A DNA stretch of 64,000 nucleotides from Armatimonadetes bacterium DC (GTDB lineage Bacteria > Armatimonadota > Fimbriimonadia > Fimbriimonadales > GBS-DC): NCBI GenBank assembly GCA_001442985.1, contig LDYB01000018.1, positions 124,001 through 188,000 on the forward strand. Reading direction: 5' to 3'. Shown here piece after piece: positions 3,867-36,147 of the stretch (its first letter is position 1; every line of letters begins with the position of its first letter). The notes under the pieces are model-generated. The model worked only from the letters and a program-made list of their open reading frames with translations. It was not told the origin of the DNA and ran no database searches. The translations under genes were made by a program, and so were the position numbers.

Positions 3867-4634
3867 ATGCGATGTGTTTGCTTGTTGCTTGCGGTTCTGG
3901 TTCTGCTCGCAGGGTGTGGGCGTAAGGAGACGACCTCACCCGCCGAGGTGAGCTTTCAGCAGGGCGTCGAAAAGCTTCAGGCGAAAGACTACACGGGCGC
4001 AGAACAGGCGTTTCATGCGTTTGTCAAACAAAGCCCTGCGCTCAACGCCGCCCTTCAGAGGGTTTTTCAGGCTTATGTGCAGGCAAGGGCATGGGAGCCA
4101 GCCTACCAGTTTTTTGTGCAGTACGAACCTCGCGCGAACGAGATCCCTGTCAAAGTAGATCGCGCTGACTTTTATCGCGTGCTGGGCGACCTTGCCTATC
4201 GCATAGACCGCAAAGAAGAGGCAACACGCTGGTACGAAATCGCGGTGAACATGGACAAACAGAACCACCTCGCGCTCAACAACTATGCCTACACGCTTGC
4301 TGAGCTGGGCAAAGACCTCGAGAAGGCGCTGGAGCTGGTCAATCGTGCCATTGCTATCAAGTCGACTCAAGGTTCGTACTACGATACCCGGGCGTGGGTC
4401 TATTATCAGATGGGACGCTATGAGGACGCGCTTAAGGAGATTCGCTACGCGATTCAGATTGCTCCGGACACAGCGGAGCTGCGCTATCACGCGGCGGCGA
4501 TTTATGCAAAGGCTGGGCTGATTGACGACGCGCTGGTGGAACTGGAAAAAGCGCTGGCATTACAGCCAGGGCACGAGCCTTCCCGCAAACTGCGGCAGGA
4601 ACTTTTGAAGCAACGCCAAAAGAGCCAGCGGTGA
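3867..4634 (+). CDS. TPR-repeat lipoprotein
   Basis: A 255-residue protein with a lipoprotein signal peptide (MRCVCLLLAVLVLLAGC, lipobox LAGC), so probably membrane-anchored on the outside. It then carries helical repeats: an imperfect unit around residues 28-65 and clear TPR units near 100-235 (for example ALNNYAYTLAELGKDLEKAL and YDTRAWVYYQMGRYEDALKE). TPRs bind proteins; no partner can be named. The start is set by the lipobox and by a TATAAT box 7 nt upstream; there is no Shine-Dalgarno sequence. It overlaps the antiporter gene by 4 bp (GTGA), so the two are coupled. Confidence 0.88.
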   Translation: MRCVCLLLAVLVLLAGCGRKETTSPAEVSFQQGVEKLQAKDYTGAEQAFHAFVKQSPALNAALQRVFQAYVQARAWEPAYQFFVQYEPRANEIPVKVDRADFYRVLGDLAYRIDRKEEATRWYEIAVNMDKQNHLALNNYAYTLAELGKDLEKALELVNRAIAIKSTQGSYYDTRAWVYYQMGRYEDALKEIRYAIQIAPDTAELRYHAAAIYAKAGLIDDALVELEKALALQPGHEPSRKLRQELLKQRQKSQR

Positions 4635-6580
4635 GCCAGAGTCGGGAGGTCTGGGGTCTTTGCCGTGGGGCGCTCGTGGGAGTGCTTGCCCTGCTGTTTG
4701 TGGCGGGGTGGAGCGTACAGGTCTCCCTGCCCGGTGTGGCGCTCCAGAATGTGCCCGTGTCTTTCAAAGTGGAGTCTGCGCCTGCAAACAGCCGTGTGAG
4801 CCTGCAGGTGTTCACGGAAACAGGTGAACAAGTATGGCAGGGCGCGTTCACGGTTCCCGATTCGGGCACGCTGGAAACCGAAATCCGCCTGCCACAAACG
4901 GGCAGGCTGAGTTATCGCTGGGAGATAGCAGGTGAAACAGGGGCAGGGCAGGTGCGCGTGTTGCCCGCATGGTGGAGCCTGCTGCCTGCGCTGGTGGCGA
5001 TTGCGCTGGCGCTTGCCCTGCGCGAGGTGGTGCTGGCGCTGTTTGGCGGTATCTGGCTGGGCGCATGGATGGTGTATGGGGGCAACCCGTTCGCGGCGTT
5101 CCTGCGCGTGGTGGACACCTACCTGCTGAACGCCTACGCGGATCGCGACCACCTGCATATTGTGTTGTTCAGCCTGCTGCTGGGGGGCATGATCGGGCTG
5201 ATCACCCGCGCTGGGGGGCTGAAGGCGATTGTGCGCACCGCCAGCCGCTGGGTGCGCTCGGCAACCCGCGCCCAGTGGATGACCTTCCTGCTGGGGCTTG
5301 CCATCTTCTTTGACGATTACGCCAACACGCTCTTCGTCGGCTCCACCATGCGCCCGCTGACCGACCGGTTCCGCATTTCGCGCGAGAAGCTGGCGTACCT
5401 GATCGACTCCACTTCCGCGCCCGTGGCGAATCTGGCGCTCATCAGCACATGGATTGGGTTTGAGGTGTCGGTGATTGCCGAGAGTTTTCAGGCGAGTGGC
5501 GTGCGGCTGGAGCCGTACTGGGCGTTTCTGGTGAGCCTGCCGTATCGGTTCTACCCGATTTTCGCGCTGGTGCTGATTGTGTGGTTAATTCTGCTTCGGC
5601 GCGACTTTGGGGCGATGTATCACGCAGAGGTTCGAGCGCGCACAACGGGCAAGGTGCTTGCCGACACCGCCTCGCCTCTGGCAGATTACGAGAGCCGCGA
5701 CCTGTTGCCCGACGCCCATCAGCATGGCAACCTGTGGGTGGCGCTGGTGCCGCTGCTGACCGCGATTGGAGGCACATTATGGGGGCTGATTAGCACGGGG
5801 GCTGCAGGCTTGGGCGAGGGGGAGCCGCTCACCCTGCGAGGGATTCTGGCGAACGCGAACTCGTATCAGAGTCTGTTGTGGGGTTCCGCGCTGGGGTGCG
5901 CCGTGGCGTTTGTGCTGGCGGTTGCAAGCCGTGCGCTCACGATGCGCACGGCGTTCCATGCGTGGCTGGGGGGTATGCGCACGATGTTTCTGGCGGTGGT
6001 GATACTGGGGCTGGCGTGGGGCATCGGCGCGGTCTGTTCCGACCTGCACACGGCGCGCTATCTGGTGCAGACGCTGGAGGGGAGCCTCTCGCCGATGTGG
6101 CTGCCCGCGCTCACCACGCTCGTGGCGGCGGGTATCAGCTTCGCCACAGGCAGCTCCTGGGCAACGATGAGCATCCTGATGCCCCTTGTGATCCCGCTCT
6201 CGGCGGGGCTAACGCGCTCGCTGGGGGCAGAGGAGCAGACCTTCTACTTGATCGCGTCGCTCTCGTCGGTGATGGCAGGGGCGATTTTCGGCGACCACTG
6301 CTCTCCCATCTCCGATACCACCGTGTTATCCTCTATCTTTTCGGGTTCGGACCACATAGACCATGTGCGCACGCAAATTCCCTATGCACTGGTAACGATG
6401 GGGGTTGCGTGGCTGCTGGGGGATGTCGCCACAGGGTTCGGTTTCCCGGTGTGGCTGGCGCTTGGGCTGGGGACAATTGTATTGGGGCTAATTGTGCATT
6501 TTGTGGGCAAGCCTGTGCCAGAGGCAGCAGATGCGCCCCTGGGAGAATCCCCTCAACACGCCGCTTCAGAGCGTGCGTAG
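4631..6580 (+). CDS. NhaC-family Na+/H+ antiporter with extra N-terminal domain
   Basis: Polytopic inner-membrane protein of 649 residues. Residues 1-40 hold a first membrane segment and 40-115 look like a small beta-rich extracytoplasmic domain (VPVSFKVESAPANSRVSLQV). The rest is the NhaC transporter: FDDYANTLFVGSTMRPLTDR near 225, STSAPVANLALISTW, FATGSSWATMSILMPL and GDHCSPISDTTVLSS, all typical of the family. The transported ion is not provable; Na+/H+ exchange or an amino acid antiport are both known. The GTG start overlaps the TPR lipoprotein stop. An 11-bp inverted repeat (GGGAGAATCCC, 6540 and 6579) spans the stop codon and may act as a 3' hairpin. Confidence 0.88.
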   Translation: MSQSREVWGLCRGALVGVLALLFVAGWSVQVSLPGVALQNVPVSFKVESAPANSRVSLQVFTETGEQVWQGAFTVPDSGTLETEIRLPQTGRLSYRWEIAGETGAGQVRVLPAWWSLLPALVAIALALALREVVLALFGGIWLGAWMVYGGNPFAAFLRVVDTYLLNAYADRDHLHIVLFSLLLGGMIGLITRAGGLKAIVRTASRWVRSATRAQWMTFLLGLAIFFDDYANTLFVGSTMRPLTDRFRISREKLAYLIDSTSAPVANLALISTWIGFEVSVIAESFQASGVRLEPYWAFLVSLPYRFYPIFALVLIVWLILLRRDFGAMYHAEVRARTTGKVLADTASPLADYESRDLLPDAHQHGNLWVALVPLLTAIGGTLWGLISTGAAGLGEGEPLTLRGILANANSYQSLLWGSALGCAVAFVLAVASRALTMRTAFHAWLGGMRTMFLAVVILGLAWGIGAVCSDLHTARYLVQTLEGSLSPMWLPALTTLVAAGISFATGSSWATMSILMPLVIPLSAGLTRSLGAEEQTFYLIASLSSVMAGAIFGDHCSPISDTTVLSSIFSGSDHIDHVRTQIPYALVTMGVAWLLGDVATGFGFPVWLALGLGTIVLGLIVHFVGKPVPEAADAPLGESPQHAASERA

Positions 6581-21106: not shown

Positions 21107-21158
21107 AGAATCGCACGGCTCAAAGGGGTAGATTTTTTTCATGCCTCCCTGAAAGAGC

Positions 21159-21392
21159 GACGGCTAAAGCTGCTCCCAGTAAACGAAGCCCGCCTGCGCG
21201 GGCTCTTTTAGCCGACGCAGGTCGGCTTCGTTGGGTATGGGCAGGACGGCTAAAGCCGTTCCTAATAAACAAAGCCAGCCTCCGCTGGCTCCCGTAGCAG
21301 GGGCATCCTGCCCCTGTTCACGCACAGGCTGCGCGTGCTACTTCAACCGACGGAGGTCGGCTTCGTTTTATAGGAACGGAACCTCAGCCGTC
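21159..21392. repeat. Dispersed modular hairpin repeat, family A, copy 3 (composite)
   Basis: A mosaic of hairpin modules: GCCCGCCTGCGCGGGC, AGCCGACGCAGGTCGGCT, AGCCAGCCTCCGCTGGCT, a GTAGC...GCTAC-bounded module with AGGGGCATCCTGCCCCT, and the closing GGAACGGAACCTCAGCCGTC. It immediately precedes the CRISPR terminator. Confidence 0.7.
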
Positions 21393-21410
21393 AGAACCTC
21401 ACCCCCCCAC

Positions 21411-21450
21411 AAACAAAAAAACGCCCCTCCCTCGCGCGAGGAAGGGGCGT
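21411..21450 (-). terminator. Rho-independent terminator at the distal end of the CRISPR array
   Basis: Minus-strand hairpin with arms 21421-21428 / 21443-21450 (ACGCCCCT / AGGGGCGT) continued by CCTCGC/GCGAGG, one mismatch, followed by an almost pure T run (21420-21411). It starts 6 nt after the last repeat in the direction of transcription. Confidence 0.85.
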
Positions 21451-21455
21451 CTTCC

Positions 21456-24185
21456 GTTTCAATCCCTCCCAGGTAGGCTACAAACGGGAAGTACGGGCGC
21501 ACGGCCGTGCGCCCCAACAAGGGTTTCAATCCCTCACAGGTAGGCTACAAACCAAGGACAGGTCAACCCCATGGACAGTGATCCCGAGTTTCAATCCCTC
21601 ACAGGTAGGCTACAAACGAGATCATGCGAGCGAACCTGATCTGCCCTCAGTGGTTTCAATCCCTCACAGGTAGGCTACAAACGATTGTAGAAGCAGGGCT
21701 GCCCAACATGTACCAGCTGCTGTTTCAATCCCTCACAGGTAGGCTACAAACGTAATGGCGCACCCAGTAGCCCCAGCGCTGACGCCATGTTTCAATCCCT
21801 CACAGGTAGGCTACAAACTGGTCTCCTGTCAGCTCAATATCTCCACCTGCACGGGTTTCAATCCCTCACAGGTAGGCTACAAACTATAACCGCCGACAGG
21901 CGAGAGTTACTCACCCAGAGTTTCAATCCCTCACAGGTAGGCTACAAACGCGGGTGCAGCCTCGTGCGCCGAGCAACATCGTGCGTTTCAATCCCTCACA
22001 GGTAGGCTACAAACAGGTTGCGGGCATTGACGAAGACGGTAATCCATTCAGTTTCAATCCCTCACAGGTAGGCTACAAACTGTCGAGACAGGATTGGAGT
22101 GGTGTGAGCAGCTCGGTTTCAATCCCTCACAGGTAGGCTACAAACCGGGCGTACGAAGAGTACGCTTTCTATGCAGATGTTTCAATCCCTCACAGGTAGG
22201 CTACAAACGGTCGATGTTGATGGATGTGCGGATGACGCGGTTGAGTTTCAATCCCTCACAGGTAGGCTACAAACCCTCGCGTTCTGGAGCGGGGTCGATG
22301 ATATCCTGCCGTGTTTCAATCCCTCACAGGTAGGCTACAAACGGGTTGCCGCGGTCATCGCGGAAGGAGGCGAAGCGGGGTTTCAATCCCTCACAGGTAG
22401 GCTACAAACTGCCGTGCCTCACCGTTCAACAACTCTCGCACCAGGTTTCAATCCCTCACAGGTAGGCTACAAACGATTTCTCGCGAATTAGCAGAAACCC
22501 GCCCAGAAGAGTTTCAATCCCTCACAGGTAGGCTACAAACTCGGATCCGTATCCGAACGGTCTCCGTTTAGTCTCCGTTTCAATCCCTCACAGGTAGGCT
22601 ACAAACGAACCGGGAGACCACCCCCTTCGCACCGATTCAACGTTTCAATCCCTCACAGGTAGGCTACAAACGCTCAGGCGTCCGAGCGCGCGCAAGAGCG
22701 TGCCCGAGTTTCAATCCCTCACAGGTAGGCTACAAACTTGTCGTGGCGCTCATGAAGGGTCGTTCGAACGCGAGTTTCAATCCCTCACAGGTAGGCTACA
22801 AACTCCCCAGCGCTTATAAGTTGCATGCCCTACAATTTCGTTTCAATCCCTCACAGGTAGGCTACAAACGGTGCGTCGCGACGGATGGATATCCGTCGTG
22901 GCGCGTTTCAATCCCTCACAGGTAGGCTACAAACTCTGACTCGTAGTCAAGGTAAAGAACACTCCCACCCGTTTCAATCCCTCACAGGTAGGCTACAAAC
23001 ATGACGCGCGTCAGCACAGGCTGGCACTGATTTATCGTTTCAATCCCTCACAGGTAGGCTACAAACGCTTGAGAGTCCCTATCACGCTCATCGCTCCACC
23101 TCCAGGTTTCAATCCCTCACAGGTGGGCTACAAACACGGCTCCCTGAAGAACCGCGCGTGCTGAAAATCAGTTTCAATCCCTCACAGGTAGGCTACAAAC
23201 GGAAGATGCTGAATATCAGGCGCAGGTGGAATATACGTTTCAATCCCTCACAGGTAGGCTACAAACTTCTATATCTGGCACGCGAGATGTTGCCTTTTGC
23301 GGGTTTCAATCCCTCACAGGTAGGCTACAAACTGGCGCTGGAGCGATACTCGCCATCCCAACGACGAGTTTCAATCCCTCACAGGTAGGCTACAAACTCG
23401 GCTTGTGTATGGGTGGCATCGGTTAGAAGCCTGTGTTTCAATCCCTCACAGGTAGGCTACAAACGCGATTACTGGCTGGCGAAGATTGTGATTGAGCGCG
23501 TTTCAATCCCTCACAGGTAGGCTACAAACTCAGGCACCTCCTCGGAAAGACCCGCGCGAGGTGAAGTTTCAATCCCTCACAGGTAGGCTACAAACTGCGT
23601 ATTCGGTTATGCATACGGATATTATACCATAGTTTCAATCCCTCACAGGTAGGCTACAAACGGTTAATCCGCTGTTTGAAGAGCACGCGTGCCTCAAGTT
23701 TCAATCCCTCACAGGTAGGCTACAAACGCACGATGAAGTAGATGCAGAGCGCGAGGTAGCCCAGTTTCAATCCCTCACAGGTAGGCTACAAACAGGACAC
23801 GCAACAAACCTTGCTTACCCAGTCACCGGTTTCAATCCCTCACAGGTAGGCTACAAACCAGTGGCTTGCCAGCGACGCGCTGCAGGATAATCGGTTTCAA
23901 TCCCTCACAGGTAGGCTACAAACTTCATCGAGTTGTGGCGTCAGACCGAGAATGCGAGGTTTCAATCCCTCACAGGTAGGCTACAAACGCGCTGCAGGAG
24001 CGTCAGTTGCGCCGCTGATGTCGAGTTTCAATCCCTCACAGGTAGGCTACAAACGGGCAGGTGAAGAGCATGTGTTGCTGATTGGTGAGCGTTTCAATCC
24101 CTCACAGGTAGGCTACAAACGCATGGGCGCGTGCGCCTCGCTGATGACAGTCAAGGTTTCAATCCCTCACAGGTAGGCTACAAAC
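21456..24185 (-). CRISPR. CRISPR array, 42 repeats and 41 spacers
   Basis: The 30-bp repeat starts GTTTCAATCC and ends GGCTACAAAC on the plus strand; read on the minus strand it ends GGGATTGAAAC, giving the ATTGAAAC 5' handle typical of Cas6-processed type I-B and type III crRNAs. Spacers are 33-39 nt, mostly 35-36. Forty repeats are identical. The leftmost one (21456) has an A-to-C change and one near the middle (23106) an A-to-G change. A degenerate left repeat, the right-hand leader with promoter and the left-hand terminator all say transcription runs on the minus strand, so the newest spacers are at 24121-24155 and the oldest at 21486-21522. No cas gene lies in the window. Confidence 0.98.
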
Positions 24186-24493
24186 CAACCCGCTCTTTGC
24201 GGGTCGGTCCCGAAAATGAGTTCAAAACGGTTCCGATTGTCAAGGTTCGGGCGTTGCCCGTTGGCGGGTTTATTATACCCCATCGGTGTGGGTGAAGTCA
24301 AGCTTTGGCGTCGATCGGACTCGGATTTGAACTCAAGTGCCCAAAAGCCGGCGATCGACGCCAAGTGGGTTTTTGGGGTACAGGATGTGGTGTGTGATAG
24401 TGCAGTCAACACGCTACCTGTGGTATATCGTCTTCTCGTTTGTCGTCGAACGAAGGGTTAGTCAAAGAATCGGGCAAAATGAGTTCAAAACGG
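24186..24493 (-). promoter_or_regulatory. CRISPR leader with direct and inverted repeats
   Basis: This 300-bp gap before the sugar operon holds no gene. A hairpin (ACCCGC/GCGGGT) abuts the first repeat. An 18-bp perfect direct repeat (AAAATGAGTTCAAAACGG) lies at 24213-24230 and 24476-24493, with an inverted partial copy (TTTGAACTCA) at 24326. A 13-bp perfect inverted repeat (TTGGCGTCGATCG) at 24305-24317 and 24352-24364 sits just upstream of the leader promoter, the inverted partial copy being in its loop. Confidence 0.75.
24272..24301 (-). promoter_or_regulatory. CRISPR leader promoter
   Basis: TTGACT (24301-24296), 18 nt, TATAAT (24277-24272) on the minus strand. This would start the precursor crRNA about 80 nt before the first repeat. 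A second TTGACA at 24243-24238 lacks a good -10 box. Confidence 0.7.
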
Positions 24494-24572
24494 CTTATGC
24501 TACACGGTGCGCCAGAAGGATGTAAAAGGGCAACGGGCTGGGGTATACTTTTTACGACATGGAGGTCAAACC

Positions 24573-33940: not shown

Positions 33941-33974
33941 ACATCAAAATAAAATTTTGCAGGGGGTTCACTCA

Positions 33975-35984
33975 ATGCGACGGTTCTGGATGCTGATAGG
34001 GACGCTAATGCTGGGGGTTGGGCTGGCACAGACGCCTCCCGTCGCCGATTTATCGCAAGACGCCCGCTTGCAGAAGCCCATCACGGTCTGGCTCCGAATT
34101 GAAACGCTCCCCGACGCGCTGAAAGCCATTCAAAAGCAGGTAGGCGTGCCGCTGGTGTGCCCCGACCGCTTTCGGAACGAGAAGGTCGCGATTTTTGTGG
34201 AGAACCGTCCCGCGCATGAGGTGCTGACGATGCTGGCGAAGCTGTTCCGCATGCGCTGGGAGGTTTACGAGGATGGCTATCGGATAGAGCGCCCTTCTGA
34301 AGAGACTGAACTGGAAGAAGAGGCAACCCGCCTCGCGCAGGAAGCCAAACGCAAAGGCGTAGAAGCGTACATAGAAACTGCACGCCGCGTGCTGGCGATG
34401 ACCCCCGAACAGCGCAAACAGCGAATTGGAGCGATTCAAAAGGAACTGGAAAAACAGCAGGGGCGTGCCAGCGAAGCAGCCCTGAGAAGTGAATTTGGTC
34501 ATCTTTCAGCCCTGGAATCATCCGTGGAGGAAACAAGTCTCCTCTTTGCTTTGCTCGGAATCGTTCCACAAGCGCACATTAGCCGTTTGCTCAAAGGTGA
34601 AGTGCTGACTTACAGCACGCATCCGAGCGCAGGGGTCAACGCCATACCGCCTGCTGTTGGGCAGTGGTACGAGACTCAGCGCAAAGCGCAGCTGGAAAAA
34701 CCCAGCACAGAGGAGCAGGAATGGTATCGTGAGTATCTCCGTAACAGGAAAATCCTTCGTTTCAGCGTAGGCTACCGACTCTCGTCCGTTTCGAATGAGA
34801 TTCTTTGCCAGCTGGGGGTGGAGAAGGAGCAGACAATTCAACCAGCCCTGCCGCGGTGCGAACATCGTCTCTTTCAGACCACTGTGTCTCTGGACGAAAT
34901 CGTGTCGGATCGGTCGCGCCTGACGCGGGAGTGGAACCAGTGGAGCGAGTCGTCGGAGTCGTTGCGTGCATGGCTCCAGCGGTTGAAACCTTTGCCGAAT
35001 CGCACGCCGCGCCCACCTGACTGGCAGCCGTTTCAGGAGCAACGATACATGCGTAACTTTGTGATGCCCACTCAGCGACTGGAACTGCTTGCGTGGCAGT
35101 ACGGTCTGCCAATTGTGGCAGATGCGTACCGACTGGGTTTAGAGGTTCTGATTGACACCTCGACCCCTCTCGCTGCCATTCAATCGCTTCAGAATACCCA
35201 CTGGATGCGTCGCGAGGGGGATTATCTTCTGGTGCGTCGCAAGCGATACTGGGAGTGGCGTGCAGTGGAGCCGCCCGAAGCGCCCATTCGCGAGCTGGAG
35301 GCGAAGTTCCAGAAAGAGGGCACGCTTACGATAGACGACTACGCGCGTTTTGTCGCCGCGCTGGATGAGAAGCCGTATCAGTGGTTGCTGGAGAGCAGCT
35401 TTTCCTATGGTCTTTACACTCTCGCCGTGCGCTTCCCCACAGAGCCACTGGGCAACCTGCCCCTGCTGCGTTTCTGGGCGACGCTCACGCCTGCCCAGCG
35501 TCAGGCGGTGCTGGCAGGCGAGTTCCTGCCTTTGCGCACGCTGACCCTCCCACAACGCAAAGCCTTTGAACACGCTCTGGAACCGTTATTCCCGCATCCG
35601 AACCGCCTGCTCGACCCCCCAAGCGAGTGCCGATTCACTACCTTCAGGTGGATATTCCCGGTATGGGACCTCGAAGACACAAAGGCTGCTGTACCTGCGG
35701 AAAGCGGTTTTGGATTGCTGGGAGCGCCCAAAAAGCTGCGCCGCACCGCGCTCTTCACGGACAGCAGCCGAGGTACCCCGATGCTAATCTTTTCGGAAGA
35801 CAGAGGTTCCGACGAGTTGGACACTGCCCAATTCCTGGAAGAAGGCGAAACCCTTTTGAGAAAAGAGAACGCGATTGCCACCGTGTACGGGTTTCGTTTC
35901 TTCATGGCGCCCGGCATGGAGCAAACCTATGAGTTCGGCTACTTTGTGCCGTTGAAAGAGACCCCCCAGAACGGTTCAAAGTAG
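33975..35984 (+). CDS. Exported protein with N-terminal STN-like domain (paralogue 1)
   Basis: A 669-residue protein with a signal peptide (MRRFWMLIGTLMLGVGLAQ). Residues 37-100 resemble the secretin/TonB short N-terminal (STN) domain: ITVWLRIETLPDALKAIQKQ, then VGVPLVCPDRFRNEKVAIFV. The remainder is not recognised. It resembles the gene at 50.5 kb both at the STN part and in a C-terminal motif (ATLTPAQRQAVLAGEF here, SLTPAQRQALLTGES there), so the two are paralogues. Its stop codon lies inside the first of the palindromic repeats that follow. Confidence 0.8.
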   Translation: MRRFWMLIGTLMLGVGLAQTPPVADLSQDARLQKPITVWLRIETLPDALKAIQKQVGVPLVCPDRFRNEKVAIFVENRPAHEVLTMLAKLFRMRWEVYEDGYRIERPSEETELEEEATRLAQEAKRKGVEAYIETARRVLAMTPEQRKQRIGAIQKELEKQQGRASEAALRSEFGHLSALESSVEETSLLFALLGIVPQAHISRLLKGEVLTYSTHPSAGVNAIPPAVGQWYETQRKAQLEKPSTEEQEWYREYLRNRKILRFSVGYRLSSVSNEILCQLGVEKEQTIQPALPRCEHRLFQTTVSLDEIVSDRSRLTREWNQWSESSESLRAWLQRLKPLPNRTPRPPDWQPFQEQRYMRNFVMPTQRLELLAWQYGLPIVADAYRLGLEVLIDTSTPLAAIQSLQNTHWMRREGDYLLVRRKRYWEWRAVEPPEAPIRELEAKFQKEGTLTIDDYARFVAALDEKPYQWLLESSFSYGLYTLAVRFPTEPLGNLPLLRFWATLTPAQRQAVLAGEFLPLRTLTLPQRKAFEHALEPLFPHPNRLLDPPSECRFTTFRWIFPVWDLEDTKAAVPAESGFGLLGAPKKLRRTALFTDSSRGTPMLIFSEDRGSDELDTAQFLEEGETLLRKENAIATVYGFRFFMAPGMEQTYEFGYFVPLKETPQNGSK

Positions 35985-36139
35985 GGGCGCACCACCATGC
36001 GCCCCTACAACAGGGCTTCGTGCCGTTGAAAGAGACCTCCCAGAACGGTTCAAGGTAGGGGCGCACCGCCGTGCGCCCCCACGCGCATGATAAACCCAGT
36101 CCGAATCCAGAGCAAGGACGCACCGCCGTGCGCCCCTAC
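35946..36139. repeat. Tandem copy of the gene's 3' end plus palindromic repeats, family B
   Basis: A 74-bp unit (starting GTGCCGTTGAAAGAGACC) is present at 35946 and again at 36020 with few changes. Each unit ends in a palindrome of the form GTAGGGGCGCAC-N6-GCGCCCC (35981-36007, 36055-36080); a third partial palindrome lies at 36116-36139. The second unit repeats the last codons of the STN gene outside its reading frame's end. Related to CRISPR spacer 1. Confidence 0.8.
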
Positions 36140-36147
36140 AACAGGGC

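Follow-up and report, generated by a model that had tools for sequence, protein, structure and literature searches.

The window, by which we mean the whole stretch of 64,000 nucleotides that we analysed, contains a CRISPR array at 21456-24185 on the (-) strand. The array consists of 42 repeats of GTTTGTAGCCTACCTGTGAGGGATTGAAAC with 41 spacers between them and is transcribed leftwards. Of the 42 repeats, 40 are the same. Two differ, one through an internal substitution and the other, the terminal repeat (21456-21485, (-) strand), through a single A>C change at 21469 on the + strand, which reads T17G in crRNA orientation. A region of more than 300 nt on the right side of the array recurs ahead of four other arrays of the genome, and we therefore take it (24186-24515, (-) strand) to be the leader. 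Directly to the left of the last repeat, a hairpin of 17 bp and a T run (21415-21455, (-) strand; fold of -30.8 kcal/mol) together resemble an intrinsic terminator; since they are found again after arrays on other contigs, we consider them to be the trailer. The orientation of the array is fixed by the conservation of both the leader and the trailer.

These elements are seen at several arrays in the genome. The window regions 24186-24515 and 21345-21455 and the loci L078, L080, L081, L082, L077 and L079 belong to arrays with a common leader that is at least about 300 nt long. The arrays of the same genome (L077-L082) also have the conserved terminator-like trailer, with more repeat sequence past it, and it looks as if cassettes of leader, array and trailer had been copied around the chromosome. 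One of these loci (L077, contig C12) contains at 5528-5659 a mini-array of two repeats with a partial leader ahead, and the sole spacer of this mini-array starts with 21 nt, GAAAACTGCGCGTTCGCGAAA, that are identical to the DNA after the last repeat. Another dispersed repeat type, GACGGCTAAAGC..TTCC..AACGAAGCC, has several copies at 21150-21375 of the window and is also found past array trailers.

Spacer 1 (21486-21522, (-) strand) is the 41st spacer from the leader. With the leader to the right of the array and the trailer to the left of its last repeat, both conserved at other arrays, this spacer is leader-distal and presumably the oldest. It is 37 nt long (GGGAAGTACGGGCGCACGGCCGTGCGCCCCAACAAGG; guide strand CCTTGTTGGGGCGCACGGCCGTGCGCCCGTACTTCCC), which fits the range of 33-39 nt in the array, and it is bounded by the substituted repeat copy at 21456 and by an intact copy at 21523. 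Positions 21495-21514 of the spacer form a perfect palindrome of 20 nt. A first-pass annotation of this DNA had already placed a perfect palindrome in the spacer at the leader-distal end and had noted its resemblance to palindromic repeats at 35981 and 36055. Both statements were borne out: the palindrome is real and well defined, the position follows from the fixed orientation, and the resemblance extends to a further copy at 36112.

What is conserved around the palindrome can be seen from an alignment of 128 loci in both orientations. The feet of the stem are conserved (G 84, T 75, A 82 and G 78%), while from position -6 outwards the composition is that of the background. Since nothing is conserved beyond the feet, the unit is 28 nt long, GTAGGGGCGCACGGCCGTGCGCCCCTAC, that is, a stem with 4-nt GTAG/CTAC feet (GTAG-GGGCGCACGGCCGTGCGCCC-CTAC). 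The foot is exactly GTAG in 157 of the 272 oriented copies; the copy in spacer 1 has GTAC and GTTG. This copy (21491-21518, no strand assigned) reads GTACGGGCGCACGGCCGTGCGCCCCAAC, or GTAC-GGGCGCACGGCCGTGCGCCC-CAAC, and agrees with the GTAG...CTAC consensus at 26 of 28 positions. Under a uniform base model, the chance that any of the 144 spacers of the genome contains a 28-mer with at most two mismatches to the unit is about 7e-11.

The exact 20-nt core of spacer 1 occurs in at least 119 stretches of public genomes from many phyla (Chloroflexota, Omnitrophota, Acidobacteriota, Cyanobacteria, Nitrospirae, Deltaproteobacteria and others). This is a warning for the matching of spacers to hosts and viruses, as an exact match of 20 nt points here to dozens of unrelated genomes. 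Matches limited to the GC palindrome in unrelated genomes, without any identity in the flanks, had been named in advance as speaking against a relationship. Our result comes close to this, in that the core is found in many unrelated phyla and nothing is shared past the 4-nt feet; yet the feet of spacer 1 match those of the unit at three of four positions on each side, and for this reason we regard spacer 1 as a copy of the whole unit, beyond a mere GC palindrome. On the other hand, GTA and C.AC, which had been taken as an independent flank, are the conserved feet of the unit in the 128 loci.

In the genome itself we see nine related copies of the stem GGGCGCAC-N4-GTGCGCCC, not counting the spacer: three in the window and six elsewhere. 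Their sequences diverge outside GTAG...CTAC, and the form with the GGCC loop is found nowhere in the assembly besides spacer 1. No strand is assigned to the three window copies. The first (35981-36008) supplies, with its GTAG, the TAG stop codon of the ORF at 33957-35984; the second (36055-36082) lies within the stretch 35980-36140, in which the tail of this gene and the palindrome are partly duplicated in tandem; the third (36112-36139) has a degenerate left arm (GCAAGGACGCAC...). Two details of the first-pass annotation need correction here. The copy at 35981 has ATGCGCCCC and not GTGCGCCCC. The supposedly shared flank 'ACAACAGGG' follows two of the copies, at 35981 and 36112, both part of a single local duplication, and is missing behind the third at 36055; in spacer 1 the corresponding text comes after CCCC and a gap of 3 nt. 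The window copies, which are grouped, lie at or after gene ends, as does a phage copy described below, and the unit is probably mobile.

Short palindromes whose foot is the tetranucleotide GTAG, the GTAG REPs, are known from several phyla including Chloroflexi and Cyanobacteria, and 24 families have been published (Di Nocera et al. 2013, PMC3733652). Our unit resembles them in its size (28 nt, within 20-40 bp), in its GTAG or near-GTAG foot, in its occurrence in several phyla and in the position of the window copies, which are grouped after a gene end. It differs in that its foot is symmetric, with GTAG and CTAC pairing, whereas the REP tag is unpaired and present at one end only, and in that there are about nine related copies in 2.85 Mb as against hundreds. 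The genome has one Y1 gene, and no unit was found beside Y1/RAYT-like genes when flanks of Y1 loci of this genome and its relatives were scanned. By general features, rather than family by family, the unit resembles a REP and may plausibly act like one, though we do not file it as such.

How well does the host genome match the whole spacer? When the 41 spacers of the window were compared with the own genome by BLAST, spacer 1 alone had matches outside the array at E < 0.004 (best 2e-4), all of them on the palindrome; for 27 spacers tested from other arrays, there was no match in the own genome outside arrays below E = 0.13. The best match to the entire spacer 1 in the own genome is 31/37 (C16:63905), with mismatches at guide positions 2, 5, 17, 29, 34 and 37, and no near-perfect protospacer was found outside the arrays of this assembly, which is 95% complete. 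The best match among all copies compared is 32/37 (L206 and L043); as these two come from a Desulfobulbus and from a distant genome of the same phylum, they show no special kinship. An exact 37-nt protospacer was found in none of 84,980 genomes. The proposed alignment of spacer 1 with the repeat copies therefore holds for the unit but does not extend to the whole spacer, and the suggestion of a potential self-target has to be dropped for the present genome: judged by its sequence, spacer 1 appears to be no current self-target in the usual meaning. Tolerance of self-targeting spacers through RNA targeting, partial match or mutation has been discussed (PMC6990116). Spacer 1 is similar to such spacers in that it resembles host chromosomal DNA, and dissimilar in that it has no close protospacer in the assembly.

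It may be that spacer 1 was nevertheless taken from the cell's own copy of the palindrome, since lost or unassembled, and that it has been tolerated as a silent self-target. We consider this possible but rather doubtful. The nine related copies in the genome fit such an origin, as do the much higher frequency of the unit in cellular genomes compared with IMG/VR contigs and the fact that one window copy, fused to the stop codon of a gene, is plausibly transcribed. However, the mismatches of the best own copy lie on both sides of the palindrome and in its loop, and the GGCC-loop form is not seen elsewhere in the assembly. With the repeats of the array hardly mutated (40 of 42 intact), a drift of six bases in the spacer is unlikely. 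Moreover, random sampling of the own genome would hit the palindrome with a frequency of about 1e-4 (some nine copies of 28 nt in 2.85 Mb), and a hit in only about one of 10,000 self spacers disfavours plain accidental self-acquisition. The source copy would, in any case, be absent from the assembly.

To an origin from an invader, that is, from a phage, plasmid or integrated element with a foot-degenerate copy of the palindrome, we give an even chance. One phage contig (L035), with genes for a major head protein, a portal, a terminase small subunit and an integrase, carries an exact 28-nt unit at 4169-4196, 15 nt after the stop of the major head gene; another GTAG palindrome is found at 5239 of this contig. 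Invaders can therefore carry the unit. It also agrees with such a source that none of the other 40 spacers of the array has a strong self match. Against it, only two IMG/VR contigs have a footed unit, the full GTAG...CTAC feet were seen in one contig, and no IMG/VR contig with the unit exceeds 30/37 to spacer 1. Searches of IMG/VR with partial patterns of spacer 1 gave no match, and neither the whole array against phages nor single-sequence queries against phages and plasmids gave anything useful, apart from weak partial matches in plasmids. The version with a phage as the source is weakened, since the unit is rare in IMG/VR and common in cells. The first-pass annotation had also considered that a mobile palindromic repeat and an invader share ancestry. 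This is possible, as spacer 1 is a copy of a dispersed repeat that is also present in at least one phage.

We also see an apparent excess of the looser stem GGGGCGCAC-N4-GTGCGCCCC in viral contigs, with 22 matches versus 6 for a scrambled palindrome. We discounted it, because 20 of the 22 are without GTAG/CTAC feet. Most of these 20 contigs (L264-L284), and many of the 22 matches, have TTCG/CGAA loops with T/A runs as is typical of terminators, and the footless viral stem would seem to be a common terminator-like hairpin of viruses.

Three further readings concern the palindrome as such. As the unit is dispersed and probably mobile, it could have been inserted into a pre-existing spacer, but a 28-bp insertion would give a spacer of about 64 nt and spacer 1, with its 37 nt, is within the normal range; on this ground of length we reject the insertion and give it next to no credence. 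A strong hairpin adjoining the end of the array might instead have a structural job there, stopping transcription or stabilising the RNA. This we find highly improbable, given that no T run follows the hairpin of spacer 1, that the terminal spacers of the arrays on contigs C17, C18 and C1 lack this palindrome and that a separate terminator-like hairpin already follows the last repeat, for which reason a terminator role of spacer 1 was dismissed. Finally, adaptation could have captured the palindrome for what it is, as a hairpin DNA intermediate or a stalled-fork product of a mobile REP-like unit. Perfect stems of at least 8 bp are in slight excess among the spacers of the genome (4 of 144, versus 0.7% of random 36-mers of the window), which speaks weakly for it. 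We think such a capture improbable as well, though if it were true, old spacers could record the movement of REP-like units.

The effect that spacer 1 might have depends on the interference machinery. Contig C12 encodes Cas10, Csm3, Csm4, Csm5 and Csx1 (type III-A) and contig C5 encodes Cas10, Csx10, Csm3-like proteins and Csx19 (type III-D); Cas10 is thus accompanied by RAMP effector genes of the Csm or Csx10 type, as in type III systems. For Cas3 of type I there was no match above the cut-off in the own genome, and type III effectors are the only ones found in the assembly. The system is like type III-A (Csm) and III-D (Csx10/Csx19) systems in these operons and in a repeat that ends in the ATTGAAAC tag. 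It is unlike them in that the effector operons are not adjacent to the arrays examined and in that Cas1 was not found in the assembly, although the genome has about 156 repeats and effector operons of two type III systems. Since three contigs begin inside arrays, genes may be missing, and Cas1 may sit in an assembly gap; the cell may or may not be able to acquire spacers at present. Type III complexes recognise RNA and use complementarity to the handle instead of a PAM. Such RNA targeting by handle complementarity has been discussed, together with evidence that some systems have an RNA PAM (PMC6990116). As only type III effectors were found, which read RNA, a check of the PAM side as the first-pass annotation had advised is largely moot.

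We see no evidence in the sequence of active autoimmunity by spacer 1. For the suggestion that the substitution in the terminal repeat disables the crRNA we find no support: in the transcript this repeat is on the 3' side of spacer 1, and on the transcribed (-) strand it is the intact repeat at 21523 that provides the 5' handle. The predicted fold of the repeat is also unchanged, and the identical variant is found internally in an array of a relative (G171). Upstream of the host copies, no more than four of eight bases agree with the ATTGAAAC handle, so these copies would not be excused as 'self array', and the silence of spacer 1 towards them would be due to mismatches, to folding or to a lack of transcription. 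With the palindrome in its middle, the guide has a predicted folding energy of -18.5 kcal/mol, lower than that of any other among the 144 spacers, which suggests that the crRNA is probably a poor guide.

Taken together, the results make it likely that spacer 1 is an old spacer of the ordinary kind, that its protospacer was part of a copy of the dispersed, REP-like palindrome of 28 bp with GTAG feet, and that its crRNA is largely inert. The source copy may have been on an invader or on the DNA of another cell, or it may have been a host copy that has been lost since or is unassembled. Today the crRNA would be largely inert as guide and target fold into the same hairpin; the nearest host copies, with at least six mismatches, would add to this, and a type III complex would act on transcribed targets only. 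In a setting of this kind, in which RNA is read by type III complexes, a spacer that looks like self may be harmless. Spacer 1 is a clean example of an entry in CRISPR memory that coincides with a dispersed palindromic repeat of many phyla, which is also carried by at least one phage.

Two observations on other spacers may be added. A locus in another genome (L131, contig C117 of G161) has five consecutive spacers in common with positions 1-416 of L077 on contig C12, two of them with 1-2 mismatches, and the genome that shares these spacers is listed in a different genus. In the window array, the first 24 nt of the spacer at 23465-23499 match a host gene (C19:88587-88610) at 23 of 24 positions with the reading frame kept (DYWLAKIVIER versus DYHLAKIVIER), which suggests that the target of this spacer has a homologue in the host or in a prophage.
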